From contig JACQBG010000009.1 in the NCBI GenBank assembly GCA_016194585.1, positions 1 through 64,000 on the forward strand: DNA of 64,000 nt, read 5' to 3'. The DNA is from Gemmatimonadota bacterium (GTDB taxonomy: Bacteria > Gemmatimonadota > Gemmatimonadetes > Gemmatimonadales > Gemmatimonadaceae). How positions within the stretch are numbered: position 1 is the first letter of the stretch; every line of letters starts with the position of its first letter. The notes under the pieces were generated by a model. The model had not been told where the DNA came from. It saw nothing but the letters and a program-made list of their open reading frames with translations, and made no database searches. The position numbers and the translations under genes were made by a program. Positions 9,199-62,515 of the stretch are shown here, one piece after another.

Positions 9199-9954
9199 GT
9201 GCAACTCGCGGTTGGCGCGCGTTCCGACGTCGGGATGATCCGGTCCGGGAACGAGGACAACTTCTTCGCGGAAGCGAACGAGCGGCGCGGGGTGTTCGTC
9301 GTCGCCGACGGGATGGGCGGGCACGCGGCCGGCGAGGTCGCGAGCGAGATGGCCGTGCAGATCGTCGCGCGCCACCTGCTGCCGATGGCGAGCGTGCTCG
9401 ACACCGACGCGGCCGACCGCATCGTGCAGTCGCTGCGCGACGCCAACCGCGCGATCTACGAGCGGATGCTCGCCGAGGTCGACAAGCAGGGGATGGGGAC
9501 GACGGCGAGCGTGCTCGTGCTGTCGGACGACCAGTTCCTCATCGGACAGATCGGCGACTCGCGCATCTACCTGCTGCGCGACGGCGCCCTGAAGCAGGTG
9601 ACGAAGGACCACTCCTACGTGCAGGAGCAGGTCGACGCCGGGCTGCTGACGCCGGAGCAGGCGCGTTATCACCCGTACAGCAACGTCATCACCCGCTGCG
9701 TGGGCGCGAGCGAGACGGTCGACGCCGACGTGTACCGCGGCCAGGTGTTCCCCGGCGACGTGTTCCTCGTGGCGAGCGACGGGCTCACGGGGATGGTCGA
9801 CGACCGCCGGCTGCAACAGCTGCTCCTCGCGCGCAGCGGTCCGGGGCGGATCGTCGACGCGCTCATCGCCGAAGCCAACGGACGCGGCGGACTCGACAAC
9901 ATCACGGCGATCGTCGTGCAGGTGGCCGCGGTGGACGCGCAGGCGAATGGCTGA
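9199..9954 (+). CDS. PP2C-type Ser/Thr protein phosphatase (Stp1/PrpC family)
   Basis: A 251-residue cytoplasmic phosphatase of the bacterial PPM family. The metal-coordinating motifs are all present: RSGNED near residues 15-20, ADGMGG, MGTTASVLV, GDSRIYLLR, ASDGLTG and GLDNIT. The length matches the minimal Stp1/PrpC type, which dephosphorylates substrates of eukaryotic-like kinases. The GTG start is placed two bases after the FHA gene stop, and its 3' end overlaps the next small gene by eight bases, so the three genes are probably translated together from the promoter at 7661. Confidence 0.95.
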   Translation: MQLAVGARSDVGMIRSGNEDNFFAEANERRGVFVVADGMGGHAAGEVASEMAVQIVARHLLPMASVLDTDAADRIVQSLRDANRAIYERMLAEVDKQGMGTTASVLVLSDDQFLIGQIGDSRIYLLRDGALKQVTKDHSYVQEQVDAGLLTPEQARYHPYSNVITRCVGASETVDADVYRGQVFPGDVFLVASDGLTGMVDDRRLQQLLLARSGPGRIVDALIAEANGRGGLDNITAIVVQVAAVDAQANG

Positions 9955-23993: not shown

Positions 23994-24196
23994 TCGACGT
24001 CGTCCGCGCGGCCGCGCAGCCGGCGGCCGCAGCGTGGGCAGTACATCTCGTCGTGCTGCACCGCCAGCGCGTAGTCGAACCAGCGGCCGCACCGGCACTC
24101 CGCCTCGAGCGTCTCGTGCCCGCAGGTGACGCAGAAACGGTCGTCGTCGAGATACGTGTGGAAGCGGCCGCAGGTCGCGCAGCGCTTGATGATCAT
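23990..24196 (-). CDS. Small double zinc-ribbon protein
   Basis: A 68-residue cytoplasmic protein with four CxC/CxxC knuckles: CATCG, CVTCG, CRCG and CPRCG, which should bind two zinc ions. The ATG at 24196 forms an ATGA overlap with the stop of the envC-like gene, and its own stop overlaps the nfo start in the same way. An upstream ATG at 24214 is possible but less likely. Function is unknown; double zinc ribbons often bind nucleic acid or proteins, and its tight coupling to nfo suggests a DNA-related role, though this is only positional evidence. Confidence 0.75.
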   Translation of the reverse strand: MIIKRCATCGRFHTYLDDDRFCVTCGHETLEAECRCGRWFDYALAVQHDEMYCPRCGRRLRGRADDVE

Positions 24197-25431
24197 TTGC
24201 GACTCCGCAGCCATTCCAGCGGATCGACCGCCTGCCGGCCGTCGGGGCGGATCTCGAAGTGGAGGTGCGGGCCGAGTTCGGGGTCGGTGGTGCCGACCGT
24301 GCCGAGGATCTGCCCCTTCGCGATCTTCGCCCCCTTGGTGACGCTGATCTGCCCCAGCGAGCTGTAGATCGAGTAGGCGCCGGCGCCGTGCTGCAGCACC
24401 ACCGTCGGACCGTAGGTGCCGAACGACTGGAGCACTTCGGCCACCGAGCCGGCGGCGACGGCGCGCACGGCCGTGCCCGCGGGGGCGCCGATGCCGACGC
24501 CGTTCCAGCGGATGGCGGTGTTGTTCGGGTTGACGGCGCGCCCGAAGCGATAGAGGATCTCGCCCTCGACCGGCCAGTCGAGGCGGCCGATGTCGGTCGT
24601 GCGGAGGGTGCTCGTCGTCGGGATCGAGCTGCCCGCGCGGCCGGCGGCGCGGCGCCGTTCCGTCTCGAGGGCGAGCACGATGTCGGTGAGGCGCTTCTCG
24701 TCCTTGCCGATCTGCTGCAGCCGCTGCTCGGTCGCCTTCTGCCGGGCCTGCGCCTGCGCGAGACTCCGACCGCGCTGCTCCTCGAGCGTGCGCAGCCGCT
24801 TCTCCTCCTCGGCCTTCTCCTGGCGCGAGAGCTCCACGTCGCCGCGCAGCCGCAGCAACGACTGCCGCTGCCGGTCGATGAGCATGCCGAGCGTCTCGAC
24901 GCGCAGCACGAGCGCGCGGTCGCGCTGCGCGACGAGGTGCAGGTACTTGTAGCGCGCGATGAGTTCGCCGAACGACTGCGCCGAGAGCAGCGCCTCCGCC
25001 GAGTACATCGGACCGCGCTTGTAGATCTCCTTCACGCGGTGCTCGAGCGCGGCGCGCTTGATGGCGAGCTCGTCCTGGGCATGCACGAGGTCGGCCGTGG
25101 TGCCGTGCTCCTCCTCGCCGAGCGAGGAGATCTGGGCGTCGAGCGAACGCACGGCGCGCGCCGTCGCGTCGCGCTGCCGCTCGATGTTCGTGCGCTCCTC
25201 GGAGAGGTCGTGCACCGTGCCCTGCAGCTCGCGCATGCGTTTCTGGAGGTCGGCGCGCTCGTTGCGGATGCGGTCGAGCTCCTCGCGCTGCGCGCGGAGC
25301 TTCTCGTTGGCGTTCTGGGCGTTCTGGGCGTTCTGCGCGCTTGGCGGCGGGGGCGGCTGCTGGGCGGCGAGCGGCGCCGCCACGCCGAGCCAGACCGCGC
25401 CGGCGGCCAGCCGCAGCCGGCGGCCAGCCAC
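24193..25431 (-). CDS. EnvC-like murein hydrolase activator (coiled coil plus degenerate LytM domain)
   Basis: A 412-residue secreted protein. A signal peptide (cleavage near APLAAQQ) is followed by about 220 residues of coiled coil, then a LytM/M23 domain. The distal motif HLHFEI is intact, but where active LytM enzymes have HxGxD this protein has WNGVG, so two zinc ligands are missing. EnvC of enterobacteria has the same kind of defect and acts by activating amidases under FtsEX control. Because the gene directly follows ftsE and ftsX, the same role in septal peptidoglycan splitting is likely. The GTG at 25431 starts two bases after the ftsX stop. Confidence 0.88.
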   Translation of the reverse strand: MAGRRLRLAAGAVWLGVAAPLAAQQPPPPPSAQNAQNAQNANEKLRAQREELDRIRNERADLQKRMRELQGTVHDLSEERTNIERQRDATARAVRSLDAQISSLGEEEHGTTADLVHAQDELAIKRAALEHRVKEIYKRGPMYSAEALLSAQSFGELIARYKYLHLVAQRDRALVLRVETLGMLIDRQRQSLLRLRGDVELSRQEKAEEEKRLRTLEEQRGRSLAQAQARQKATEQRLQQIGKDEKRLTDIVLALETERRRAAGRAGSSIPTTSTLRTTDIGRLDWPVEGEILYRFGRAVNPNNTAIRWNGVGIGAPAGTAVRAVAAGSVAEVLQSFGTYGPTVVLQHGAGAYSIYSSLGQISVTKGAKIAKGQILGTVGTTDPELGPHLHFEIRPDGRQAVDPLEWLRSRK

Positions 25432-25433
25432 CG

Positions 25434-26282
25434 TCAGACGTCCCTCAGGTGCCGTCCCACGCTCAGCAGGCTGCCGAGCAGCCCGATGAGCGCGCCCGCC
25501 AGCACGCCGAGCACGGAGAGCCGCACGTCGAAGAAGTCGGCGCGGAACACGTAGCGTCCGATCACCGCGTTGGCGCTCCAGGCGAGCAGGAGCGCGAGCA
25601 GCCCGCCGAGGAATCCCTTGAGCGCCCCTTCGATGAGGAACGGGCTGCGCACGAACGAGTCGGTCGCGCCGACGAGCCGCATGATCGCGATCTCCCGCGC
25701 TCGCGCGAGCACGGCCATGCGGATCGTCGACCCGATGATGATGATGGCGACGGCGGCGAAGGTGAGGCCGAGGAGCATGCCGGCGAGCGTCGACAGCGTG
25801 CGGATGCGGTAGAGCTTCTGCACCCATTCCTCGCCGTACCGCACGTCGTCGATGAAGTCGTAGGTCTTCATCCGGTCGGCGACGGCCTTCACGGTGGCCG
25901 GGTCGCGGAAGCCCTCCTTGAGCCGGACGTCGAGCGAGGCCGGGAGGATGCCGGGGTCGAACACGTCCTTGAACTCGCCGAGTTCGCGGCGGGCCCGCTC
26001 GAGGGCGGCCTCGGGGGTGACCATCGTCACCGAGGCGACCTCGGGGAACGCCCGCACGTCGGCGATCGCGGCGCCCGTCTGTTCGGCCGTCGTGCCGTCG
26101 ACGATGAACGCGCGCACCTCCACGCGGTCCTCGACCTCGGTGAGCGCCTTGCGGATGTTGAGCGCGACGAGCCCGAACAGCCCGAACGCGAAGAGCGAGA
26201 AGGCGATCGTCGTCACGCTGAGGGCGCTCAGCATCGGCGCGCGCCGGAAGGCGAGGAGGGCCTCGCGCCAGGCGAGTCTCAT
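25434..26282 (-). CDS. ftsX: Cell-division ABC transporter permease FtsX
   Basis: FtsX is the membrane half of the FtsEX complex, which passes an ATPase signal through the inner membrane to periplasmic peptidoglycan hydrolases. The 282-residue protein has the expected shape: an N-terminal membrane segment (SALSVTTIAFSLFAFGLFGL), a periplasmic domain of about 120 residues, then three more membrane segments in a FtsX/MacB domain (IIIIGSTIRMAVLARAREIA). The start forms an ATGA overlap with ftsE, and the envC-like gene begins two bases after its stop. Confidence 0.95.
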   Translation of the reverse strand: MRLAWREALLAFRRAPMLSALSVTTIAFSLFAFGLFGLVALNIRKALTEVEDRVEVRAFIVDGTTAEQTGAAIADVRAFPEVASVTMVTPEAALERARRELGEFKDVFDPGILPASLDVRLKEGFRDPATVKAVADRMKTYDFIDDVRYGEEWVQKLYRIRTLSTLAGMLLGLTFAAVAIIIIGSTIRMAVLARAREIAIMRLVGATDSFVRSPFLIEGALKGFLGGLLALLLAWSANAVIGRYVFRADFFDVRLSVLGVLAGALIGLLGSLLSVGRHLRDV

Positions 26283-26977
26283 GCGTCGTCCCCTACGGCG
26301 GCGGCCGGCGCCGGCGCGCCCGAGTCGAACACGAGCTGACCGTGGTTGAGCTCGATCGTGCGGAACTTCGCCTGCCGCACCAGTTCGAGGTCGTGCGTCG
26401 CCATCAGCACCGCGGTGCCCGCGGCGTTGATGTCGCGGAGGAGCTGGAACACGCCGCGCGTGGCGCGCTCGTCGAGGTTGCCGGTGGGCTCGTCGGCGAC
26501 GATGAGCATGGGGTCGTTGGCGAGCGCGCGGGCGATCGCCACGCGCTGCTGCTCGCCGCCGGAGAGTTCGCGAGGGAGCGCCATCCCCTTCGACGCGAGG
26601 CCGACCTGGGTGAGCAGCTTGCCGACGCGCGACGCGATGCCGGTCGACGGCGCGCCGGTGACCTCGAGGGCGAACGCGATGTTCTCCTCGACGCTGCGGT
26701 CCTCGAGCAGCCGGAAATCCTGGAAGATGATGCCGAGCTTGCGGCGCAGCTTCGGCACGTCGCGGCCGGTGATCGTCACCGAGCTCGTCCCCGCGACCTT
26801 CACTTCGCCCGACGTGGGACGCTCGTCGAGGTAGGAGAGCTTGAGGATCGTGCTCTTCCCGGCGCCGCTCGGCCCCGTGAGGAAGGCGAACTCGCCGCGG
26901 GCGAGATGGAACGACACGTCCCGCAGCGCGAAGCCGGTGCGGGGGAACTCCTTCGTGACGTGCGTGAAGCGGATCAT
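26279..26977 (-). CDS. ftsE: Cell-division ATP-binding protein FtsE
   Basis: The cytoplasmic ATPase of FtsEX. At 232 residues it has Walker A GPSGAGKST (residues 35-43), a Q-loop (GIIFQDFRLL), signature LSGGEQQRVAIARAL, Walker B LIVADEPTGNLD and switch His (MATHD). Compared with E. coli FtsE it has a slightly longer C-terminal tail rich in Ala and Pro. It lies three bases after the transsulfuration enzyme gene and overlaps ftsX by four bases. Confidence 0.97.
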   Translation of the reverse strand: MIRFTHVTKEFPRTGFALRDVSFHLARGEFAFLTGPSGAGKSTILKLSYLDERPTSGEVKVAGTSSVTITGRDVPKLRRKLGIIFQDFRLLEDRSVEENIAFALEVTGAPSTGIASRVGKLLTQVGLASKGMALPRELSGGEQQRVAIARALANDPMLIVADEPTGNLDERATRGVFQLLRDINAAGTAVLMATHDLELVRQAKFRTIELNHGQLVFDSGAPAPAAAVGDDA

Positions 26978-26980
26978 CCG

Positions 26981-28138
26981 TTACTTGAGCGCCTGTTCGA
27001 TGTCGGCGATGATGTCGTCGGCGTCCTCGATGCCGATCGAGAGGCGCAGGAAGCCGTCGGGGATGCCCAGCTTGGCCCGCTCCTCGCTCGTCATCGAGGC
27101 GTGCGAACTGTAGCGCGGCTCGCTCACGAGGCTGTCGACGCCGCCGAGGCTCGCGGCGTGCTGGATGAGCTTGAGCCGGCGGAGGAACCGCTCGGCCGCC
27201 TTGCCGCCTCCCGTGAGCTCGATCGCCATCATGCCCCCGAAGCCGTCGAGCATGGCGCGCGCGATCTCGTGGTCGGCGTGGTCGGAGAGCCCCGGGTAGT
27301 GCACCCGCTTGATCTCCTTCCGGTCGGCGCACCAGTTGGCGATGCGCATCGCGTTGTCGTTCTGCCGGCGCACGCGCACGTCGAGCGTCTTGAGCCCGCG
27401 CTCGAGCAGCCAGAGCGCGAACGGGTCGGGGGCCTGCCCCCACACCATCATCTTCTGCAGCACTTCCTGGATGTACGGCTCGGTGCCGCAGACGACGCCC
27501 GCCATCGCGTCGTGGTGCCCGTTCAGGTACTTCGTGGCCGAATGGATGACGACGTCGGCGCCGTGCTCGATGGGGCGGAAGTTCACGGGGCTCGCGAACG
27601 TCGAATCGACGACGAGGGCGAGGCCGATCTCCTTGGTGAGGTACGAGATCGGGCGGAGGTCGAGCACGCGGCAGCTCGGGTTCACGGGCGACTCGACGAA
27701 GATCGCCCGCGTCTCCTTGCGCAGCCGCTTCCGCCAGGCGCGCGGCTCGAGCGGGTCGACGAGCGTCACGTCGATCCCCATGCGCACGAACTCCTCGGTG
27801 AACAACCGGAACGTGCCGCCGTAGATGTACGAGCTCGACAGGAGGTGGTCGCCGGGACGCAGGAGGGCGAGCATCGCGCACGCCGTCGCGCCCATCCCGC
27901 TCCCCAGCACGAGCGACGATTCCGCGCCGTCGAGCAACGCCAGGCGCTTCTGCAGCCGCTCCGAGTTCGGCGTGTTGCCGTAGCGCGTGTACTTGAGCCC
28001 GGCGCCGGTGCCGATCTCCTGAATGTAGTTCACCGACTGCACGAGCGGCGGCGCGACGGGGTCGCCCGGCTGATGGCGTTCGGCGGCGCCATGGATGGCG
28101 ACCGTCGCGAGCCCGTGCGACGTCTTCTTCTTGCTCAT
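26981..28138 (-). CDS. PLP-dependent transsulfuration enzyme (cystathionine gamma-synthase/lyase family)
   Basis: A 385-residue member of the Cys/Met metabolism PLP family. The PLP-binding lysine is in HSATKYLNGH, the ring-stacking and phosphate region in GSGMGATACAM, and the substrate arginine region near DGFLRLSIGIED. Enzymes of this family make or break cystathionine, homocysteine or methionine; the exact reaction cannot be fixed by eye. The ATG at 28138 (MSKKKTSHG) is preferred over an upstream extension that would overlap the previous gene. It is tightly packed between the STAS/HATPase cassette (seven bases) and ftsE (three bases). Confidence 0.92.
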   Translation of the reverse strand: MSKKKTSHGLATVAIHGAAERHQPGDPVAPPLVQSVNYIQEIGTGAGLKYTRYGNTPNSERLQKRLALLDGAESSLVLGSGMGATACAMLALLRPGDHLLSSSYIYGGTFRLFTEEFVRMGIDVTLVDPLEPRAWRKRLRKETRAIFVESPVNPSCRVLDLRPISYLTKEIGLALVVDSTFASPVNFRPIEHGADVVIHSATKYLNGHHDAMAGVVCGTEPYIQEVLQKMMVWGQAPDPFALWLLERGLKTLDVRVRRQNDNAMRIANWCADRKEIKRVHYPGLSDHADHEIARAMLDGFGGMMAIELTGGGKAAERFLRRLKLIQHAASLGGVDSLVSEPRYSSHASMTSEERAKLGIPDGFLRLSIGIEDADDIIADIEQALK

Positions 28139-28145
28139 GGGCGGG

Positions 28146-28448
28146 TCACCGTTTGACGAAGGGGATCTGGTGCGTGCGTTCGGCATCCACTTTCACGAGG
28201 TGCACGACGTCGGTGAGCACGATGCCCGCGAGGTCGCGCACCACCACGCCGCCCTTGGGCAGCGTGTCGTCGATCTCCACCGGGGCGAGCTCATGCCGCT
28301 TCGGGCCATAGACCCACACCAGCTCGCCGGCGGCGACGGCGCGGAGCCGCGCGTCGTCCGCCCGCAGGCGCAGCAGCGGGCCCCGCTCCGCGTCCGACAC
28401 CCGCGTCGCGATGTAGCCGACCACCTGCAACGGCGGGTTGTACGCCAC
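28146..28448 (-). CDS. Small barrel-like protein in the STAS/HATPase cassette
   Basis: A 100-residue cytoplasmic protein without a signal peptide or cysteines. Its pattern of short beta strands with Gly/Pro turns (VVGYIATRV, GELVWVYGPKR, TLPKGGVVVRDLAG) resembles a double-psi beta-barrel such as a molybdopterin dinucleotide-binding or aspartate-decarboxylase-like domain, but this is only a visual fold guess. The GTG start shares one base with the TAG stop of the STAS-like gene, a strong sign of coupled translation. Function unknown. Confidence 0.6.
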   Translation of the reverse strand: MAYNPPLQVVGYIATRVSDAERGPLLRLRADDARLRAVAAGELVWVYGPKRHELAPVEIDDTLPKGGVVVRDLAGIVLTDVVHLVKVDAERTHQIPFVKR

Positions 28449-28999
28449 TAGTGATGGGCCACGTTCGGGGCGGAATACGACTCGCCGTCGAACCGCAGCA
28501 GCCGCCGGCGGTGCAGGGCGCCGAGCAACTCGGCGATCACCTCCGGTTCGCTCCCCGCCGCGCGCGCCACGTCGGCCGCACCGGCCGCGCCGAGCGCCCG
28601 CACGTGCTCCCACGTCTCCCGCTCGTCGTCGCTCACCGCGCCCACCAGCCGCGCCGCGCCGTCGGCGAAGTGCACCACCAGCGCCAGCCCGTGATGGTGC
28701 AGCACGTCCTCGATCGCCTCGAGGTGCGCGTCGGTGATGCCGTGGAACACCACGTAGCCGAGGTCGGCGTCGCGGTGCTTGTAGGCGAGCAGCAGCTTCG
28801 CCACCACCTCGTCGGCGCACGAGTAGTCCATCATGCCGATCTGCGAGAAGTCGAGTAACGCGACGTCGCCGCGATGCAGCCCCTCGAGCTCCCGCTCGAT
28901 GCACTGCCGCACCGCCGCGCCCGTCGGCCGCGTCACGAGGTCCGCGTACGGCAGGTTCGCGGAATGCCGCAGCACCGAGCCCACGTCGATGCGCGTCAT
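28448..28999 (-). CDS. STAS-like (DUF4325-type) protein with winged-helix-like C-terminus
   Basis: A 183-residue protein. Residues about 25-120 look like a STAS-type fold: DVALLDFSQIGMMDYSCADE carries a serine where anti-sigma-factor antagonists are phosphorylated. The last 50 residues (AADVARAAGSEPEVIAELLG, then LHRRRLLRFDGESY) read like a small winged-helix unit. Its start overlaps the HATPase gene stop as ATGA, and its stop overlaps the next start, so it is likely made in a fixed ratio with the HATPase protein, presumably as its partner in a phosphorylation switch. Substrate and output are unknown. Confidence 0.75.
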   Translation of the reverse strand: MTRIDVGSVLRHSANLPYADLVTRPTGAAVRQCIERELEGLHRGDVALLDFSQIGMMDYSCADEVVAKLLLAYKHRDADLGYVVFHGITDAHLEAIEDVLHHHGLALVVHFADGAARLVGAVSDDERETWEHVRALGAAGAADVARAAGSEPEVIAELLGALHRRRLLRFDGESYSAPNVAHH

Positions 29000-29886
29000 G
29001 CCGTCTTCCCCACGTTCTCGGGGATGGTGATCTGCAGCTGCGCGCCGGGGAAGTTGGGGAGGTTGTCGCGCCGCGGCACGTCGTCGTCCCAGGCGGGCAC
29101 GATCGCGATGCGCGCCGTGCCGCTCCGCACCGCGAGCTTGCCGCCGCGACGGCCGATGTACCCGCGGATCCCCTTGATCCCCTGGCCGCGCCCCGGGTCG
29201 GAGTACCGGCTCACGCCGTTCACCACGGCGAGCTCGAGCGCCGCGCCGTCGCTCCACCGGTCGGTCACGGGGCGGCGCTGGCCGTTCTCGAGCGACTTCC
29301 GGAAGCCGATCCCCGCGTCGCACACGGCGATCTCCGCCGCCCAGCGGCCGAGCCGCTTGCGATAGTGATAGGCCTGCACCATCACCCAGCCGCCACGCCC
29401 CGCGTGCTCGACGATGTTCTGGCACGATTCCGACAGCGCCATCGAGAAACCCATCATGGCCCGCGGTTCGAGGTGCAGCTTGTTCGTGAGGATGACTTCG
29501 GCCTGCTTCTGGATGCGCTCGACCACGTCGTGCACGTCCTGGCTCCGATTCACCGGGGTGACCTCGAGCAGCACGTCACTCTCTCCGGACGACCGGGCGC
29601 GCGGGACGTTACCCTGCAGGTCGTACAGCTCCTCGGCGTACTTGAAGAATCCCGCCCGCACCCAGTAGGAGGACTTGTCCGTGTCCTCCGGGGTGAGGAA
29701 GGTCGGCTTCTCCTGCCGCGTCTGGGCCAGCGTCAGCAGCGCCGTCAGCCCGTACGGCGACGCCCACGTGCAGTGACGCGCGTCGAGGATCACCTTCTCC
29801 TCCGGCGGGTGGGGCGCCAGCTGCTCGAGGACCTGCTCAAACGTCAGGTCGTTGAGCGAGGATGGAAGGGTGATGACGGCCGTCAC
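28996..29886 (-). CDS. STAS-like domain fused to a GHKL (anti-sigma-type) ATPase
   Basis: A 296-residue protein. Residues 1-100 resemble a STAS-like domain (EKVILDARHCTWASPYGLTA). A GHKL ATPase follows with all three boxes: N box ALSESCQNIVEHA, G1 VCDAGIGF and G2 GRGQGIKGIRGYI. There is no membrane segment and no histidine phosphotransfer domain, so it looks like a SpoIIAB/RsbW-type serine kinase or ATP-binding regulator rather than a sensor kinase. Having antagonist-like and ATPase domains in one chain is uncommon. It overlaps both neighbours by four bases (ATGA), next to the PfkB-like kinase and the STAS-like gene. The target sigma factor, if any, is not in the window. Confidence 0.8.
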   Translation of the reverse strand: MTAVITLPSSLNDLTFEQVLEQLAPHPPEEKVILDARHCTWASPYGLTALLTLAQTRQEKPTFLTPEDTDKSSYWVRAGFFKYAEELYDLQGNVPRARSSGESDVLLEVTPVNRSQDVHDVVERIQKQAEVILTNKLHLEPRAMMGFSMALSESCQNIVEHAGRGGWVMVQAYHYRKRLGRWAAEIAVCDAGIGFRKSLENGQRRPVTDRWSDGAALELAVVNGVSRYSDPGRGQGIKGIRGYIGRRGGKLAVRSGTARIAIVPAWDDDVPRRDNLPNFPGAQLQITIPENVGKTA

Positions 29887-30863
29887 GCGCTGAGCTCTCC
29901 GCGCAGGTAATGGGCGAGTCCCGTGGCGCCACGGTGCTCGACGTTGCGCGCGGCCGCCTCGTGCGCGGCACGCATCGCGTCGGTGAATCTATCACCCGCG
30001 ACCAGCCTTGAGTAATAGGTCGCGCCCCACACGTCGCCACACCCCGTGGGGTCGCCGTCGGCGATGCGCGCCAAGCTCGGCGGCACCAGCGCCGTCTGGA
30101 TCGCGCCCCCCATCGCGGCGCGCGACGTCACCGGTGGGTCGCGCCGGATGTCCGACAGCCGCGCGAAGTCGGGCGCCGCGAAATAGGCCGCGCCACGCTG
30201 CCCGAGCGTGACCGTCAGATGCTGCACGCCGTTCGCGAGCGCTGTGGCGGCAAGCGCCATCGGATCGCTCGCCATCATCGCCATCTCCTCCTCGTTCACC
30301 TGCACGAGGTCGAAGCAGCGACACCACAGCGCCACGTCGGGAAGCGGACGCAGCGTGCGCAACCCGTCAGGCTGCACCGCCAGCACCAGCGAATGCAGGT
30401 CGCAGTAGATCGGGCCCCGGAAATGCTGCCGGAGCAACTGCGCCGTCTCGAGATCGAGCTCGAAACCGCTGATCAGGTTCACGTAGAGCGCGTCCAGGTC
30501 ACGGACGAGCGGCGCAAGCCCGATCCAACTCCACCCGGGGATGCCTCCCGAGAGCACTTCACTGCGCCGTTCCGCGTCGGTGTAGAAGAGTTCGACGCGG
30601 TTATTCCGGTAGGGCACTACAATAGGATGCGCATCGGGCGCGATCCGGCGCAGCCGCCGCAGGAAGTCGCCCGCCTTGGAGGCGAGATCCTCGCCCACCT
30701 TCACCAGCGGGACCAACTCCCAGTCCTCGGGGAGCGCGGCGTCGAACGCGCTGAGCGCGTACGTGATTCCGCCCCACTCCTCCACGGGCGAGCGCGCCGG
30801 GTCGCGGCCGTGGATGACGTCCCACACGAAGGTGCCGATCACCCCCATGCGCTTGCGGCGCAT
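29883..30863 (-). CDS. PfkB-family carbohydrate/nucleoside kinase-like protein
   Basis: A 326-residue ribokinase-like protein. The PfkB C-terminal signature is present as GDPTGCGDVWGA, with the catalytic-base aspartate in GCGD and anion-hole glycines. The N-terminal signature region is diverged (EWGGITYALSAFDAALP). It should transfer phosphate from ATP to a sugar, nucleoside or similar alcohol in the cytoplasm; the substrate cannot be told. Its stop overlaps the HATPase gene start by four bases, and it follows the ROK kinase by six bases, so two sugar kinases precede the regulatory pair. Confidence 0.85.
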   Translation of the reverse strand: MRRKRMGVIGTFVWDVIHGRDPARSPVEEWGGITYALSAFDAALPEDWELVPLVKVGEDLASKAGDFLRRLRRIAPDAHPIVVPYRNNRVELFYTDAERRSEVLSGGIPGWSWIGLAPLVRDLDALYVNLISGFELDLETAQLLRQHFRGPIYCDLHSLVLAVQPDGLRTLRPLPDVALWCRCFDLVQVNEEEMAMMASDPMALAATALANGVQHLTVTLGQRGAAYFAAPDFARLSDIRRDPPVTSRAAMGGAIQTALVPPSLARIADGDPTGCGDVWGATYYSRLVAGDRFTDAMRAAHEAAARNVEHRGATGLAHYLRGELSA

Positions 30864-30869
30864 GGCGCG

Positions 30870-31886
30870 CTACGCGGGCTGCTGCGACATGAACGTCGCG
30901 ACCGCTCCTACCATCCCCGCGTTGCCCCCCAGCGCGCCGGGCACGATGCGGCAGGCGTCCACCGCCGGCTTGAACGCGCGGCGCTTCACTTCGGCCCTCA
31001 GCGGGCCGAACAGGTCCTCGCCGGCCTGCGCAACGCCGCCGGCCAGCACCACGACGTCGGGGTTGAACACGTTCAGCAGGTTGGCGATCCCCGTGCCGAT
31101 GTAGCGCGCCGTCTCGCGCACGACTTCGCTGGCGATCCGGTCGCCCGTCTTCGCCGCCTCGTACACGGTCTGCGCGGTGACCTTCGAGAGGTCGCCCCCC
31201 GCCATCACCAGCAACGCCGACGGCTCGCCCCCGGCGAGGGCCTCGCGCGCCCGCTCGCCGATCGCCGTGCCCGAGGCGTAGGCCTCGAGACAGCCGTAGT
31301 TGCCGCACTTGCAGCGGCGTCCCTGCGTGTCGATGGTCGTGTGCCCGATCTCGCCGGCCACGTCGCTCGACCCGTGATACAGCTTGCCGTCGAGGATGAG
31401 CCCGCCGCCGATGCCCGTGCCGATCGTCATGCCGACGACGTTCCGCCCCCCCTGCGCAGCGCCGATCCACCACTCGCCGACCGTCGCGCAGTTGGCGTCG
31501 TTGTCGAGCGTCGCCGTCAATCCGGTCGCGGCCACGATCCGGTCGCGCAACGGATAGTCGTTCCAGCCGAGGTTGGGTGCCACGATCACCAGTCCGGCGT
31601 CGCGGTCGAGCGGCCCCGGTGCGCCGAGCCCGACCCCCCAGAACTGCTTCCGCGTCGCGCCGGTCTTCGCGATCGTCTCGGCGATCACCGTCTCGATGGC
31701 CGCGGCGATGCGCGCCGTGACGCCGTCGGCGCCGTCGGCGGCGTTCGTCGGCTCGGTCACCTGGGCGACGATGGCGCTGCCGTCGGCGGGCATGACGCCG
31801 GCCGAGATCTTGGTGCCTCCGAGGTCGACCCCGATCACGTAGCGCGTGTTGGACACGACATTCCTCTCGCTGGGAGTGGCACTCAC
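30870..31886 (-). CDS. ROK-family sugar kinase (glucokinase-like)
   Basis: A 338-residue ROK protein. An ATP-binding DLGGTK motif lies near residue 21, the catalytic Asp in LDNDANCATVGEW, a second phosphate motif in IGTGIGGGLI, and the zinc site is complete (CKCGNYGCLEAYASG, after EIGHTTID). No N-terminal helix-turn-helix is present, so it is an enzyme rather than a repressor, most likely a glucokinase. The GTG at 31886 forms a GTGA overlap with the heptosyltransferase stop; a GTG 10 codons in (VSNTRYVIG) is an alternative start. Part of the long minus-strand operon. Confidence 0.94.
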   Translation of the reverse strand: MSATPSERNVVSNTRYVIGVDLGGTKISAGVMPADGSAIVAQVTEPTNAADGADGVTARIAAAIETVIAETIAKTGATRKQFWGVGLGAPGPLDRDAGLVIVAPNLGWNDYPLRDRIVAATGLTATLDNDANCATVGEWWIGAAQGGRNVVGMTIGTGIGGGLILDGKLYHGSSDVAGEIGHTTIDTQGRRCKCGNYGCLEAYASGTAIGERAREALAGGEPSALLVMAGGDLSKVTAQTVYEAAKTGDRIASEVVRETARYIGTGIANLLNVFNPDVVVLAGGVAQAGEDLFGPLRAEVKRRAFKPAVDACRIVPGALGGNAGMVGAVATFMSQQPA

Positions 31887-32920
31887 GGGTGGAGCAGCGC
31901 GTGCACGGCGCCCTCAATATGGCTCACGTCGAGGTCGCGCATACAGCGCCAGTGGCCGAGCGGGCACACCGCCGGGCCGTGCGAGTCGCAGGGGCGGCAC
32001 GCCAACCCTTCCACGCCCGCCGTGTCATGCCGCGGGGCCAGCGGCCCGAACCCGAACGCCGGCACCGTCGGGCCGAAGAGGGTGAGCGTCGGCGTGCCGA
32101 CGGCGCTGGCCAGGTGCTGCGGCGCCGAATCGTTGGTGACGAGCGCGGCGCACCGCGCGAGCAGTTCGGCGCTCGCCAGGAGCGTGAGCTCGCCGGTGGC
32201 ATCGACGATCCGCTCCGAGCCCGCCGCGGCGGCGATCTCGGCGGCGAGCGGGGCGTCGTCCGCTCCCCCCACGACGATGATGCGGTAGACCGGCGCCATC
32301 CGCTTCGCGAGGGCGGGGAAGTGCGGCCACCGCTTCGTTCCCCAGATGCTCCCGGGCGCGAGCGCGAGGTAGGGTGCGCCATCGCGCGGGACGTCGCGCA
32401 GCAACCGGTCGACGCTCGCGCGTTCGGCCTCGCCCGGGTACAGCCGTGGCGCGATGGCGCCGGCCGGTGCCTCGCCCGCGCGCGCGCCGAGCGTCCAGAG
32501 GCGCTCGGCGTGGTGCCGGTCCTTGGCGTAGCGCACGCGGCGCGTGTACAGGAAGCGCCCCGCGCTCGTGTTGAACCCGACGATCTCACGGATCCCCGCG
32601 AGCACCACGAGCGCGGCCGACCGCACGGAGCCCTGCGCCATGTACGCGGCGTCGTACCGGCCAGCGCGCAACGTGCGCGCCATGCGCCAGAGTCCGCCGA
32701 ACCCCGCGTCGGCGCGTCGCTTGTCGTACACGATCACGCGGCGTACGGCCGGGTGGTTCGCCAGCAGCGGCGCCCCCGCGGGGGTCGTCACGACGTCCAC
32801 CGCGCCACGCTCGGCGAGCGACGCGATCAGCGGCGTCGTGAGGACGAGGTCGCCGAGGAAGGAGGTCTGGACGACGAGGAAGGACAAGGGCGGGTGAACG
32901 CTGGACGGTGGACGGTACAC
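31883..32920 (-). CDS. Lipopolysaccharide heptosyltransferase-like glycosyltransferase, family 9 (WaaF-like)
   Basis: A GT9 glycosyltransferase that would add heptose to the LPS inner core at the cytoplasmic face. It shows the N-terminal Rossmann region (LVVQTSFLGDLVLTTPL), the sugar-nucleotide region LALAPGSIWGTKRWP, the motif VTNDSAPQHLASAVGTPT and a C-terminal CPLGHWRCMRDL, typical of WaaF-type proteins. The frame opens at a GTG (32920), giving 345 residues, but its first codons lie in the 14-bp repeat array. A TTG at 32887 gives the usual short N-terminus (SFLVVQTSFLGD) and may be the true start. It begins the coupled run down to the porin gene. Confidence 0.88.
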   Translation of the reverse strand: MYRPPSSVHPPLSFLVVQTSFLGDLVLTTPLIASLAERGAVDVVTTPAGAPLLANHPAVRRVIVYDKRRADAGFGGLWRMARTLRAGRYDAAYMAQGSVRSAALVVLAGIREIVGFNTSAGRFLYTRRVRYAKDRHHAERLWTLGARAGEAPAGAIAPRLYPGEAERASVDRLLRDVPRDGAPYLALAPGSIWGTKRWPHFPALAKRMAPVYRIIVVGGADDAPLAAEIAAAAGSERIVDATGELTLLASAELLARCAALVTNDSAPQHLASAVGTPTLTLFGPTVPAFGFGPLAPRHDTAGVEGLACRPCDSHGPAVCPLGHWRCMRDLDVSHIEGAVHALLHP

Positions 32921-33012
32921 CGTGAACGTACTTGGCTTGAGGCGCGCCGGCGAGCGAATGCGTGCGGGCCGCTGCGGCGCAGCAGTGAACCGTTCACCGT
33001 GAACCGTTCACC
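32894..33012. repeat. Two arrays of the 14-bp palindromic repeat between lepA and the heptosyltransferase
   Basis: Two perfect tandem copies of GTGAACCGTTCACC occupy 32985-33012, just after the lepA stop. A second array with variant units lies at 32894-32921 (GTGAACGCTGGACG, GTGGACGGTACACC), with a partial unit beyond. Each unit is itself nearly palindromic (GTGAAC/GTTCAC). The first array is placed to terminate lepA; the second overlaps the possible 5' end of the heptosyltransferase gene. Confidence 0.75.
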
Positions 33013-33030
33013 GCACGTTCGCGGTCGCCG

Positions 33031-34827
<1,797 letters not shown>

Positions 34828-34865
34828 GGATGGACCAGGTTCGGGACGGTTTGGCGTAGCCTTTC

Positions 34866-34871
34866 AATATA
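34866..34871 (-). promoter_or_regulatory. -10-like hexamer for lepA
   Basis: TATATT on the minus strand, 38 bases before the lepA ATG, in the 95-base divergent region with the DUF58 gene. It is the only -10-like box noted in the window that leaves a leader of ordinary length. Confidence 0.45.
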
Positions 34872-34881
34872 GTTGCCGTAG

Positions 34882-34910
34882 CTGCCAATCCGAACGCCCG
34901 GCGCTAACTT
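34882..34910 (+). promoter_or_regulatory. Promoter for the DUF58-BatA operon
   Basis: CTGCCA (34882-34887) and TAACTT (34905-34910) are spaced by 17 bases, closely like the FHA operon promoter (TTGCCA, 17, TAGTTT). The -10 box ends 12 bases before the ATG at 34923. Confidence 0.5.
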
Positions 34911-34922
34911 TCCCTCCCCTCC

Positions 34923-35834
34923 ATGGCTCTCTCCCGTTCCCGCGCCGACCAGATCGATCCCGCCTCGCTGGCGGCCCTCGGGCGCATCGAGATCATCGCG
35001 CGCTGGGTGGTCGAGGGGTTCCTCACGGGACTGCATAAATCGCCCAAGAAAGGGTTCTCCGTCGAGTTCGCGGAGCACCGCGCCTACCAGCCGGGCGACG
35101 ACCTGCGCTACCTCGACTGGAAAGTCGTCGCGCGCGCCGACAAGTGGCTCATCAAGCAGTTCGAGGAGGAGACGAACCTCCGCGCCACGATCGTGCTCGA
35201 CGTGAGCAAGTCGATGGCATGGACCGGCGACCCGGCGCGCCTCACCAAGCTCGCGTATGCCGAGCTCGTCGCCGCCGCCGTGGCGTGGCTGCTCCTCCGT
35301 CAGCGCGACGGCGTCGGCCTCATCCGCTTCGACGACGAGGTGCGCACCGTCATCCCGCCGCGCGGGCGCAGCGCGCAGTGGCGCCGCATCGTCGGCGCGC
35401 TCGACGATCCGGGCGCCGGCGCGGGATCCGACGCGAAGAGCGCGATCCTCCAGGCGGCGCAGCTCGTGTCACGCCCGGGCATGGTCGTCATCATCAGCGA
35501 CCTCCTCGTCGAGGAGCAGGCGATGACCGACGCCGTCTCGGTGTTGCGCGCCGTCGGCCACGACGTGACCGTGCTGCACGTGCTCGACCCCGTGGAGCGC
35601 GACCTGGGCCTCGCCGCGAACGAGGTCGAGCTCGTCGACACCGAGGGCCCCGCGTCGGTGCACGCCACGGTGAGCGAGATGCGCGAGGCGTACCGCGACA
35701 CCGTCGACGAGGCGATCGAGGAATGGCGCGGCCGGCTCGCCGCGAGCGGCGCGTCGTACATGCCGATCTACACGAACCAGCCCTTCGGCGTGCCGCTGCG
35801 CGCGGCGTTCGCGGCGCGCCAGGCGCTGCCGTGA
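34923..35834 (+). CDS. DUF58 domain protein (von Willebrand A-like)
   Basis: A 303-residue cytoplasmic protein with the DUF58 hallmark FAEHRAYQPGDDLRYLDWKV near residues 48-67, followed by a vWA-like domain with a MIDAS-type start DVSKSMAW. DUF58 proteins are usually encoded with MoxR ATPases and BatA/BatB membrane proteins and are thought to help assemble or protect envelope or metal complexes. Here the BatA-like gene follows with a GTGA overlap, but no MoxR gene is in the window. The promoter at 34882 drives the pair. Confidence 0.93.
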   Translation: MALSRSRADQIDPASLAALGRIEIIARWVVEGFLTGLHKSPKKGFSVEFAEHRAYQPGDDLRYLDWKVVARADKWLIKQFEEETNLRATIVLDVSKSMAWTGDPARLTKLAYAELVAAAVAWLLLRQRDGVGLIRFDDEVRTVIPPRGRSAQWRRIVGALDDPGAGAGSDAKSAILQAAQLVSRPGMVVIISDLLVEEQAMTDAVSVLRAVGHDVTVLHVLDPVERDLGLAANEVELVDTEGPASVHATVSEMREAYRDTVDEAIEEWRGRLAASGASYMPIYTNQPFGVPLRAAFAARQALP

Positions 35835-61363: not shown

Positions 61364-62515
61364 GTGACCACGGCGCACGCCAGCGCGCAGGCCGAGATCC
61401 GTCGCGACGGCGAGGGGTTCGTCGCCGTGGTCTCGGGTGACTGGAATCTGGAGCGGGCGGCGCCACACTTCGCCGCCCTGATGGAAGCGGCGCTGGCGAG
61501 CGCGCCGCCCAGTGCGTCCGACGCGCGCGCCGTCACCGTCGATGCCAGCGCACTCGGCGCGTGGGACAGCAGTCTCCTGATCTTCCTGCGGCAAGCGCAG
61601 GATTACTGTGACGCGCATGCGCTCCGGTTCGCGACGGACGGCCTCCCCGAACGCATCGCGAGTCTGCTCGCGCTCGCTCATGTGGTGCCTGAGCGGGTCG
61701 CGGAGCGCGACGAGCCGCGCCCGTCGCCGATCGCGCGGTTCGGGCTCGCCGGCCTCGCCACCTGGGATGTGGCCACGGACGCGCTCTCCTTCGCCGGCGA
61801 GGTGGCGCTACGTGGCGCCCTGTTGCTCCGCGGGCGCGTGCGCATGCGGTGGCGCGAGTTCTGGGTCGTCGTGCAGGCGAACGCGTCGGGGGCGCTTCCC
61901 ATCGTGACGCTGATCGCGCTGCTCGTCGGCGTGATCATCGCGTTCCTCGGTGTCGTCGTGCTCAAGCGTTTCGGCGCGGGCTACTACGTCTCGTACCTCG
62001 TCGGGTTCGGGATGCTCCGGGAGATGGGCGCGCTCATGACCGGCATCATCATGGCGGGCCGCACCGGCGCCGGGTTCGCCGCCGAGCTGGGCAGCATGAA
62101 GATCACCGAGGAGATCGACGCGCTCACGACGCTCGGGATCTCCCCCGTCGATCATCTCGTGCTGCCGCGCGTGCTCGGCCTCTTCGTGATGATGCCGCTC
62201 CTCGTGCTCTACGCCGATCTCGTGGGCATCGCCGGCGGCATGGCCGTCGCCGTGGGGATGCTCGACCTCACGGCGCGGCAGTTCGTGAACGGGATGCTCA
62301 CGGCCGTCGAGCTCTCCGACACGCTGCTCGGCCTGTTCAAGGCGACGGTCTACGGCCTGATCATCGGCATGGCGGGCACCATGAAGGGCTTGCGGACCGG
62401 ATCCGATGCCGGCGCGGTGGGTCGTTCCGCGACGTCGGCCGTCGTCGTCGGCATCACGTTCATCATCCTCTCGAACGCCGTGATCGACTGGCTCGCGGCC
62501 CTCCTGCAGCTATGA
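61364..62515 (+). CDS. mlaE: Lipid-transport ABC permease MlaE with N-terminal STAS domain
   Basis: The inner-membrane permease of the Mla system, which moves phospholipids between the inner and outer membrane. The C-terminal 260 residues are MlaE: membrane helices GALPIVTLIALLVGVIIAFL, the conserved LREMGALMTGIIMAGRTGAGF, and ITEEIDALTTLGISPVDHLV. Residues 1-110 form a STAS-like domain (RAVTVDASALGAWDSSLLIF), a role played by the separate protein MlaB in E. coli, so permease and MlaB are fused here. GTG 61364 follows GGAG by three bases; the start is not certain. mlaF overlaps its stop as ATGA. Confidence 0.93.
   Translation: MTTAHASAQAEIRRDGEGFVAVVSGDWNLERAAPHFAALMEAALASAPPSASDARAVTVDASALGAWDSSLLIFLRQAQDYCDAHALRFATDGLPERIASLLALAHVVPERVAERDEPRPSPIARFGLAGLATWDVATDALSFAGEVALRGALLLRGRVRMRWREFWVVVQANASGALPIVTLIALLVGVIIAFLGVVVLKRFGAGYYVSYLVGFGMLREMGALMTGIIMAGRTGAGFAAELGSMKITEEIDALTTLGISPVDHLVLPRVLGLFVMMPLLVLYADLVGIAGGMAVAVGMLDLTARQFVNGMLTAVELSDTLLGLFKATVYGLIIGMAGTMKGLRTGSDAGAVGRSATSAVVVGITFIILSNAVIDWLAALLQL

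Follow-up and report, generated by a model that had tools for sequence, protein, structure and literature searches.

Switches composed of a GHKL kinase and a STAS protein have long been regarded as controllers of sigma factors. With the CapK/CapS and VapKSC systems of 2026 such switches were found to drive immune operons and a toxin as well. CapK, a STAS-GHKL serine kinase, and CapS, a repressor composed of a STAS domain and a winged helix (wHTH), were characterised in June 2026 as a DNA-damage switch of bacterial immune systems, in which CapK phosphorylates Ser54 of CapS (PMC13373217; Chambers et al., EMBO J 2026). The HTH of CapK is dispensable and VapK has none; the aromatic residue stacking on ssDNA is W68 in CapK and F54 in VapK (PMC13373217). 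CapS contacts DNA through Asn145, Lys151 and a GG wing, and its operator lies either between the kinase and substrate genes or between CapS and the next gene (PMC13373217). VapS inhibits the neighbouring VapC, so that the substrate controls an adjoining enzyme by contact, and VapK action on VapS Ser48 was deduced (PMC13373217). Crystal structures of CapS are deposited as PDB 9z71-9z73.

The locus described here is part of a 64,000-nucleotide stretch of a Gemmatimonadota contig (hereafter the window), of which positions 28146-30863 contain four open reading frames on the minus strand, all of them open at the coordinates given below. They encode a PfkB-family carbohydrate kinase (P0001, 29883-30863), a protein of 296 amino acid residues with a GTG start, SHK (P0002, 28996-29886), a protein of 183 residues, STAS2 (P0003, 28448-28999), and a small β-barrel protein of 100 residues (P0004, 28146-28448). 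In gene order, PfkB and SHK share four bases (GTGA), SHK and STAS2 four bases (ATGA), and STAS2 and the small protein a one-base stop/start overlap. The four genes and their overlaps are thus as in the preliminary description, except that it had read the first junction as ATGA. A ROK-family glucokinase-like sugar kinase (P0006, 30870-31886, minus strand; Pfam ROK 3e-71) is the constant upstream neighbour. Downstream lies a Cys/Met-metabolism PLP enzyme resembling cystathionine gamma-synthase (26981-28138, minus strand; Pfam 8.9e-123), a frequent but not constant neighbour. Further neighbours of SHK are LepA, a heptosyltransferase, FtsE/X and an M23 peptidase. As already reported from the sequence, neither a sigma factor nor a phosphatase occurs among the neighbours of SHK and STAS2 in the window; nor does a PIN/VapC-like toxin gene. 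A promoter scan, which is uninformative for this GC-rich phylum, returned no sigma-70-like promoter in 24000-35100.

SHK consists of a STAS domain (residues ~1-93) and a GHKL/Bergerat serine-kinase-like ATPase domain (~104-290), an architecture resembling that of CapK and VapK. In fold searches residues 1-93 matched STAS antagonists (Z 8.6) and residues 104-265 matched RsbW/SpoIIAB (Z 9-9.9), the GHKL half of the predicted model being of low confidence. The N, G1 and G2 boxes, earlier described as complete, are so in all 68 aligned SHK proteins, with E153, N157 (N box), D190, G192, G194 (G1), R233, G234 and G236 (G2) conserved at 100%. The STAS domain carries Tyr, Phe, Ala or Asn at the position of SpoIIAA Ser58 and has lost its phospho-acceptor. 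Pfam assigned HATPase_c and HATPase_c_2 to 26/26 SHK members and STAS_2 to 10/26; the SHK of the window itself remained under the gathering cut-offs. Pfam, NCBIfam and PADLOC on their own yielded sub-threshold names. A PADLOC match of SHK to DrmA covers the GHKL region only and was not accepted as a defence assignment.

STAS2 combines a STAS-like domain with a C-terminal winged-helix-like domain (residues ~121-180). Its serine at the phosphorylation position, Ser60, is invariant (72/72) within the motif D58-x-S60-C-A-D-E; counted in the translation frame downwards from 28999, its codon lies at ~28820-28822 on the minus strand. Positions 29020-29022 (minus strand) fall near the 3' end of SHK and were rejected as a separate feature. 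A TRxTGxAVR motif is also present. The winged helix, put forward as possible in the preliminary description, is predicted with a pLDDT of 90-97, and wHTH proteins, MarR-type and others, filled the fold search (VIA Z 9-10.6); the crystallised CapS (9z71-9z73) was absent from its matches. Prephenate dehydrogenase was discarded as an affiliation of STAS2, its weak matches being located on the stretch preceding the wHTH. DUF4325 was likewise discarded as a family, its match being marginal (E 0.009-0.13) and a literature search on it having yielded no useful lead. A pair of the SHK/STAS2 type is not described in the eLife 2020 paper on conflict systems.

By profile comparison, SHK and STAS2 are nearest to CapK and CapS. 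SHK aligned with CapK over 273 columns (hhalign E 1.3e-13) and its HMM matched the characterised CapK at E 1.8e-8. STAS2 aligned with CapS including the wHTH at E 7.2e-5 and a probability of 63%, a weak sequence match taken alone; its HMM matched CapS at E 8.7e-4, with decoys at 28 or above. The matches are full-length, and in both systems a STAS-GHKL kinase gene comes first with the gene for its known or putative STAS-wHTH substrate directly downstream. The kinases share the N-box Asn, their STAS-wHTH partners an invariant Ser in D-x-S: Ser60, Asp58, Glu64 and Gly27 of STAS2, each present in 72/72, correspond to S54, D52, E58 and G21 of CapS. A switch that had seemed not of the usual kind therefore has a precedent, since the same domain pair has been known from 2026 as CapK/CapS and VapK/VapS. 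Unlike CapK, SHK has no N-terminal HTH, the STAS domain coming first in all 68 members, and lacks Trp68; most SHK proteins carry Ser/Thr (position 10) and Leu (position 11) in its place, and 13/68 have Phe11 (alignment-dependent). An aromatic and basic patch (Y173, W/Y/F175, R176-R178, R181) is conserved where CapK has Y236-K237-K239. In the winged helix of STAS2 the CapS residues N145 and K151 are not conserved, and 43/72 have Asp/Glu at the latter position; none of the 72 has the GG wing, and the recognition helix has an average net charge of -1.4. Moreover, the overlapping SHK and STAS2 genes leave no operator space, and they occupy a fixed housekeeping locus, in contrast to the immune operons of CapK/CapS.

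With VapK/VapS/VapC, of which VapK and VapS were compared by description, the locus shares an HTH-less STAS-GHKL kinase and a STAS substrate with a conserved Ser/Thr; it differs in having no VapC/PIN gene, in the whole winged-helix domain kept by STAS2 and in its sugar-kinase neighbours. RsbW/RsbV and SpoIIAB/SpoIIAA likewise pair a GHKL serine kinase with a STAS substrate bearing Ser at the equivalent position. However, in SHK/STAS2 a STAS domain is fused to the kinase, the substrate carries a winged helix, and no sigma factor is linked. The same genome holds a separate canonical RsbV-RsbW-SpoIIE operon, with SpoIIE domains at C23 and at position 9700 of the window. Against its own genome, the SHK profile reached RsbW at E 27 and the STAS2 profile did not place RsbV above decoys (hhalign 0.07 and 0.19). 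SHK/STAS2 is no canonical RsbW/RsbV pair. The top Foldseek match by E-value was LvrC of Leptospira (9qih, PMC13269768), in which an alpha/beta regulatory domain likewise precedes an anti-sigma-type GHKL domain. In LvrC this is a receiver domain instead of STAS, phosphorylation is by a histidine kinase, and a STAS-wHTH partner gene is missing (PMC13269768). We regard SHK/STAS2 as a branch of the CapK/CapS/VapKSC lineage that is chromosomal and core and stands apart from immune operons.

Among 200 genomes of the main Gemmatimonadota class, SHK was detected in 190 and STAS2 in 191. SHK adjoins both PfkB and STAS2 in 88/90 loci, the remaining two stopping at a contig edge, an adjacency far beyond chance; the four-base PfkB/SHK overlap recurs in 48/65. 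The sugar-type kinase recorded beside the switch is hence a class-wide linkage. The ROK kinase is tied as tightly as PfkB, and the small barrel protein is confined to family f1 (20/20 loci, 0/39 loci of other pair-carrying families); the four genes of the original cassette are therefore not the unit, and the core conserved across the class comprises ROK kinase, PfkB kinase, SHK and STAS2. Nor is the suggested division link upheld: ftsE-ftsX-envC adjoin only in families f1-f3 and in no locus of f4-f7 and f9. The outcomes named in advance as contrary, genes rarely together and HMMs devoid of a STAS/HATPase relationship, did not occur. The non-immune neighbours are identical across families, forming a fixed housekeeping neighbourhood and no defence island. 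In family f8, a single lineage of two genomes, SHK and STAS2 are both absent while the order ROK-PfkB-PLP enzyme is retained; PfkB and ROK diverge there more than LepA. The rates of SHK and STAS2 covary (0.38-0.46 given LepA), which puts them near the top of the tested pairs, and those of PfkB and STAS2 practically do not (-0.01 to -0.11 given LepA). SHK and STAS2 are lost or gained as one unit. Beyond the Gemmatimonadota the range was judged from collections of plasmids and phages and from a single scan of genome contigs with a degenerate pattern, whose 12 matches were all from Gemmatimonadota; a Nostoc plasmid carries an intermediate pair matching both proteins (E 3.7e-23 and 1.5e-7). Present once in nearly all genomes of the class, linked to sugar kinases and altered in the residues that sense and grip DNA, such a relative would show the module running a housekeeping function as well, and would provide a first entry point into the signalling of a phylum that has hardly been studied.

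Building on the homology, architecture, residue conservation, class-wide synteny and joint loss or gain established in this analysis, we propose, with a probability of roughly 0.62, that SHK and STAS2 are the two proteins of a serine phosphoswitch within the CapK/CapS/VapKSC lineage, whose phosphorylation, direction, signal and effector we infer. The STAS domain of SHK is probably its regulatory or ligand-sensing half. Activated SHK would most likely phosphorylate STAS2 at Ser60, breaking a STAS2 contact in a homodimer or with a partner, by analogy with CapK on CapS Ser54 and VapK on VapS Ser48; a sigma factor would take no part. Because Trp68 is absent, CapK-type ligand sensing is unlikely and the activating ligand is probably sensed otherwise. 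Protein contact would be a likelier output of STAS2 than operator binding of the CapS type, since the winged helix has lost the residues with which CapS touches DNA, and these positions are largely reversed in charge. STAS2 could still bind DNA through other residues, its predicted winged-helix fold being well kept. The changed damage-sensing and DNA-gripping parts probably mean a different, everyday job.

This bears on two readings closer to CapK/CapS proper. STAS2 might truly bind DNA as a repressor, acting on its own operon or on genes elsewhere until phosphorylation lifts the repression, as its CapS-like architecture and the fold matches to MarR-type repressors suggest; the altered contact residues, the missing wing, the negative recognition helix and the lack of room at either CapS-type operator site make this rather unlikely. 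That the pair is an ssDNA-activated, DNA-damage-responsive regulator of a defence function agrees with its family membership and with the patch at the CapK Y236-K237-K239 location, but the Ser/Leu (occasionally Phe11) in place of Trp68, the fixed housekeeping locus and a DrmA match restricted to the GHKL region render it improbable.

An anti-sigma/antagonist pair acting in trans, with SHK sequestering an unlinked sigma factor that STAS2 frees, would suit the RsbW/SpoIIAB-like structure of the GHKL half, and unlinked sigma partners have been proposed for LvrC (PMC13269768). This is improbable: the window neighbours include neither sigma factor nor phosphatase, the sequences are closer to CapK/CapS than to the RsbW/RsbV of the same genome, and antagonists lack a winged helix. 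Alternatively, STAS2 may directly bind and inhibit the adjacent PfkB (or ROK), a hold that phosphorylation by SHK would undo; this would be the metabolic counterpart of VapS on VapC (PMC13373217). The constant adjacency and frequent overlap of PfkB and SHK, and the divergence of both sugar kinases beyond that of LepA in the two f8 genomes, are in its favour; yet f8 keeps PfkB without the pair, and the near-zero covariation of PfkB and STAS2 speaks against PfkB as the direct partner, which leaves this an unlikely mechanism. For the phosphoswitch proposed above, control of sugar phosphorylation by the neighbouring ROK and PfkB kinases is plausible, with synteny as its sole basis. A tentative extension would see in SHK/STAS2 a pair that became, or had always been, a core, vertically inherited metabolic phosphoswitch, sensing a metabolite instead of ssDNA in its STAS-GHKL groove and acting by protein contact on the sugar kinases or some other enzyme of housekeeping. 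On that view the immune systems CapK/CapS and VapKSC would represent one branch of an older general-purpose switch.

The PfkB-family kinase has its catalytic GxGD motif (GCGD, 274-277) intact, as well as its substrate and Mg motifs with the NxxE Mg/ATP motif, and GCGD, D15, G31-G32, N190, E193 and D277 are 100% conserved. Its Pfam PfkB match was 2.3e-9 and its profile matched ribokinases; for its substrate, no equivalog model came near its cut-off. A separate PfkA in the genome rules it out as the sole phosphofructokinase of the cell. The ROK kinase scored 249 bits against TIGR00744 (cut-off 260). The small protein matched Pfam Molydop_binding at 4.7e-4, under the cut-off, and its family profile reached TMAO/DMSO reductases at E 4.5e-6, in their molybdopterin-dinucleotide-binding barrel, in agreement with the barrel-like character first ascribed to it.

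The four minus-strand genes named in the preliminary description are present in the window. PfkB, a sugar-kinase-family protein (29883-30863), overlaps SHK, a STAS-GHKL kinase-like protein (28996-29886), by GTGA; SHK overlaps STAS2, a STAS-winged-helix protein (28448-28999), by ATGA; and STAS2 has one base in common with the gene for a small barrel-like protein (28146-28448). The overlaps reported earlier hold at all three junctions, the first being GTGA rather than ATGA. With start codons chosen mechanically, four-base overlaps were found at 48 of 65 loci for PfkB/SHK and at 37 of 67 for SHK/STAS2. A ROK sugar kinase (30870-31886) lies 6 bases upstream of PfkB, with a family 9 heptosyltransferase-type glycosyltransferase and LepA further upstream; downstream are a Cys/Met PLP enzyme (26981-28138) and, beyond it, FtsE, FtsX and an M23/EnvC-like peptidase. 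Elsewhere in the window, on the plus strand, a SpoIIE-like phosphatase domain (9700-9924, about 18 kb from the cassette) reached 25.2 bits with neighbouring pieces, barely above the cut-off, and a STAS_2-like stretch in a 485-aa open frame (61469-61678) scored 28.4 bits, slightly under the cut-off.

SHK occurs in 190 and STAS2 in 191 of 200 genomes of the phylum Gemmatimonadota, to which the window belongs; neither occurs in the two members of family f8 or in any of the six members sampled from a different class (f10). Both STAS2 and PfkB flank SHK at 88 of the 90 loci examined, the remaining two stopping at a contig edge. Across 59 loci from eight families, PfkB, SHK and STAS2 were each found 59 times and ROK 58 times, the single locus without ROK stopping at a contig edge. 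Family f1 has the small protein at 20/20 loci, against 0/39 in the other families, the PLP enzyme is a neighbour in f1, f2, f3 and f5, and the FtsE-FtsX-EnvC neighbourhood is limited to f1-f3. Given this distribution by family, ROK-PfkB-SHK-STAS2 is the conserved unit, and the link to division proposed earlier is a local accident. At one locus only (L081, 6702-7175, minus strand; G052, the sole f6 genome examined) a gene separates SHK from STAS2; read from its sequence, it encodes a cyclophilin-type peptidyl-prolyl isomerase. In one genome of the same genus, a contig end carries a second SHK piece, 57% identical (L103, G168:C51:3917-4492), which is either a second copy or contamination.

The domain assignments of the preliminary description, a STAS-GHKL fusion followed by a STAS-like protein with a serine and a possible winged helix, were borne out. 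SHK residues 1-93 adopt a STAS fold (4hyl, Z 8.6; 4xs5, Z 8.1) and residues 104-265 a GHKL fold (RsbW 6m36, Z 9.9, rmsd 2.4 over 95 residues; SpoIIAB 1th8, Z 9.3), in a structure model with good confidence in the STAS half and poor confidence beyond it. The kinase boxes are invariant across aligned members. SHK's own STAS domain has no conserved acceptor in the 68 sequences examined, the position of SpoIIAA Ser58 being Tyr in 45, Phe in 7, Ala in 6, Asn in 5 and Ser in 2. The STAS-like half of STAS2 carries an invariant Ser60 within D-x-S-C-A-D/E-E and a TRxTGxAVR motif, and its C-terminal winged helix is predicted with pLDDT 90-97.

The family was reached through weak plasmid matches, leading from SHK to a Nostoc plasmid protein, to Vibrio plasmid proteins and to the 2026 paper on CapK/CapS (PMC13373217). 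The Nostoc match is followed by a STAS-wHTH protein, and this pair aligns along its length with the window families (E 3.7e-23 and 1.5e-7; negative control 0.14); the Nostoc substrate matches Vibrio plasmid proteins located behind an HTH-STAS-GHKL protein. The sequences of the characterised Enterobacter roggenkampii pair (WP_001567866.1 and WP_001567865.1) were taken from a plasmid. SHK matched the CapK alignment over 273 columns (E 1.3e-13) and STAS2 the CapS alignment over 138 columns, winged helix included (E 7.2e-5). HMMs built from 68 SHK and 72 STAS2 sequences scored CapK_Er at E 1.8e-8 and CapS_Er at 8.7e-4, versus 27 for RsbW of the same genome and 26-28 for the best shuffled decoys. 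By sequence, therefore, SHK/STAS2 is closer to CapK/CapS than it is to RsbW/RsbV. At another site (G000:C23:121036-123053; locus L143, 3031-5093), the same genome encodes the ordinary partner-switch counterpart, a canonical RsbV-RsbW-SpoIIE operon. The Nostoc linckia NIES-25 pair (AP018224.1; L123, 6004-7524) is CapK/CapS-like and lacks an N-terminal HTH; it is carried by a conjugative plasmid, with unnamed genes as neighbours, and its substrate retains a basic recognition helix. The CapK/CapS pair of a Vibrio atlanticus plasmid (L124, 4821-6489) has a type I restriction gene and a SprT-type metalloprotease close by. Gene 32 of Gordonia phage Phishy (MW862986.1, 28304-28939), which bears the annotation 'histidine kinase', shares 27% identity with SHK across 75% of its length (E 4e-3).

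Four differences set SHK/STAS2 apart from CapK/CapS proper. In CapK, ssDNA stacks on Trp68, beside Lys237/Lys239, and CapS contacts DNA through Asn145, Lys151 and a Gly-Gly wing (PMC13373217). The Trp68 position in SHK, alignment-dependent at low identity, holds Ser, Thr or Leu, with Phe in 13/68, whereas the Y-K-G-K place is taken by an aromatic-basic Y173-x-[W/Y/F]175-[R/K]-[R/K]-R-L-G-R181; the SHK groove may therefore bind something, though not in the CapK manner. In STAS2, Lys151 is replaced by Asp/Glu in 43/72 and Asn145 is not retained, a comparison likewise alignment-dependent at low identity; the wing is shorter and without Gly-Gly in 72/72, and the recognition helix has a mean net charge of -1.4. 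CapS operators sit between genes, whereas the overlaps at the SHK/STAS2 locus leave no such space. Because of these differences in residues and operator space, DNA repression of the CapS type by STAS2 is unlikely.

A signal bound in the STAS-GHKL groove would lead SHK to phosphorylate STAS2 Ser60, which would break a STAS2 contact. This phosphorylation step has been demonstrated for CapK/CapS and deduced for VapK/VapS (PMC13373217), and it probably takes place here too, as homology and conservation suggest. In VapKSC, the STAS protein holds a neighbouring enzyme (PMC13373217); by analogy with the published description of VapK and VapS, the effector of STAS2 may be a protein. PfkB and ROK are the obvious candidates. 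Rate covariation corrected for LepA was 0.38-0.46 for SHK-STAS2 and about zero for PfkB-STAS2, and PfkB is therefore not put forward here as the target. The PfkB catalytic residues are all present, and the genome also encodes a normal PfkA.

In the two f8 genomes sampled (94-95% complete), the order LepA, ROK, PfkB, PLP enzyme is retained and neither SHK nor STAS2 is at its usual place within it. This joint absence from the exact site argues that SHK and STAS2 belong together and that PfkB can exist without them. Identity of f8 ROK to the rest is 37%, versus 54-60% between other families, and that of f8 PfkB 34%, versus 40-52%, whereas LepA is not unusually divergent (66% versus 65-72%). In this one lineage, the divergence of ROK and PfkB is consistent with altered constraint after loss of the switch. 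The faster divergence of ROK and PfkB relative to LepA is seen at both f8 loci (L141 and L142), where PfkB has Met and Leu in place of two Trp residues that are otherwise nearly invariant.
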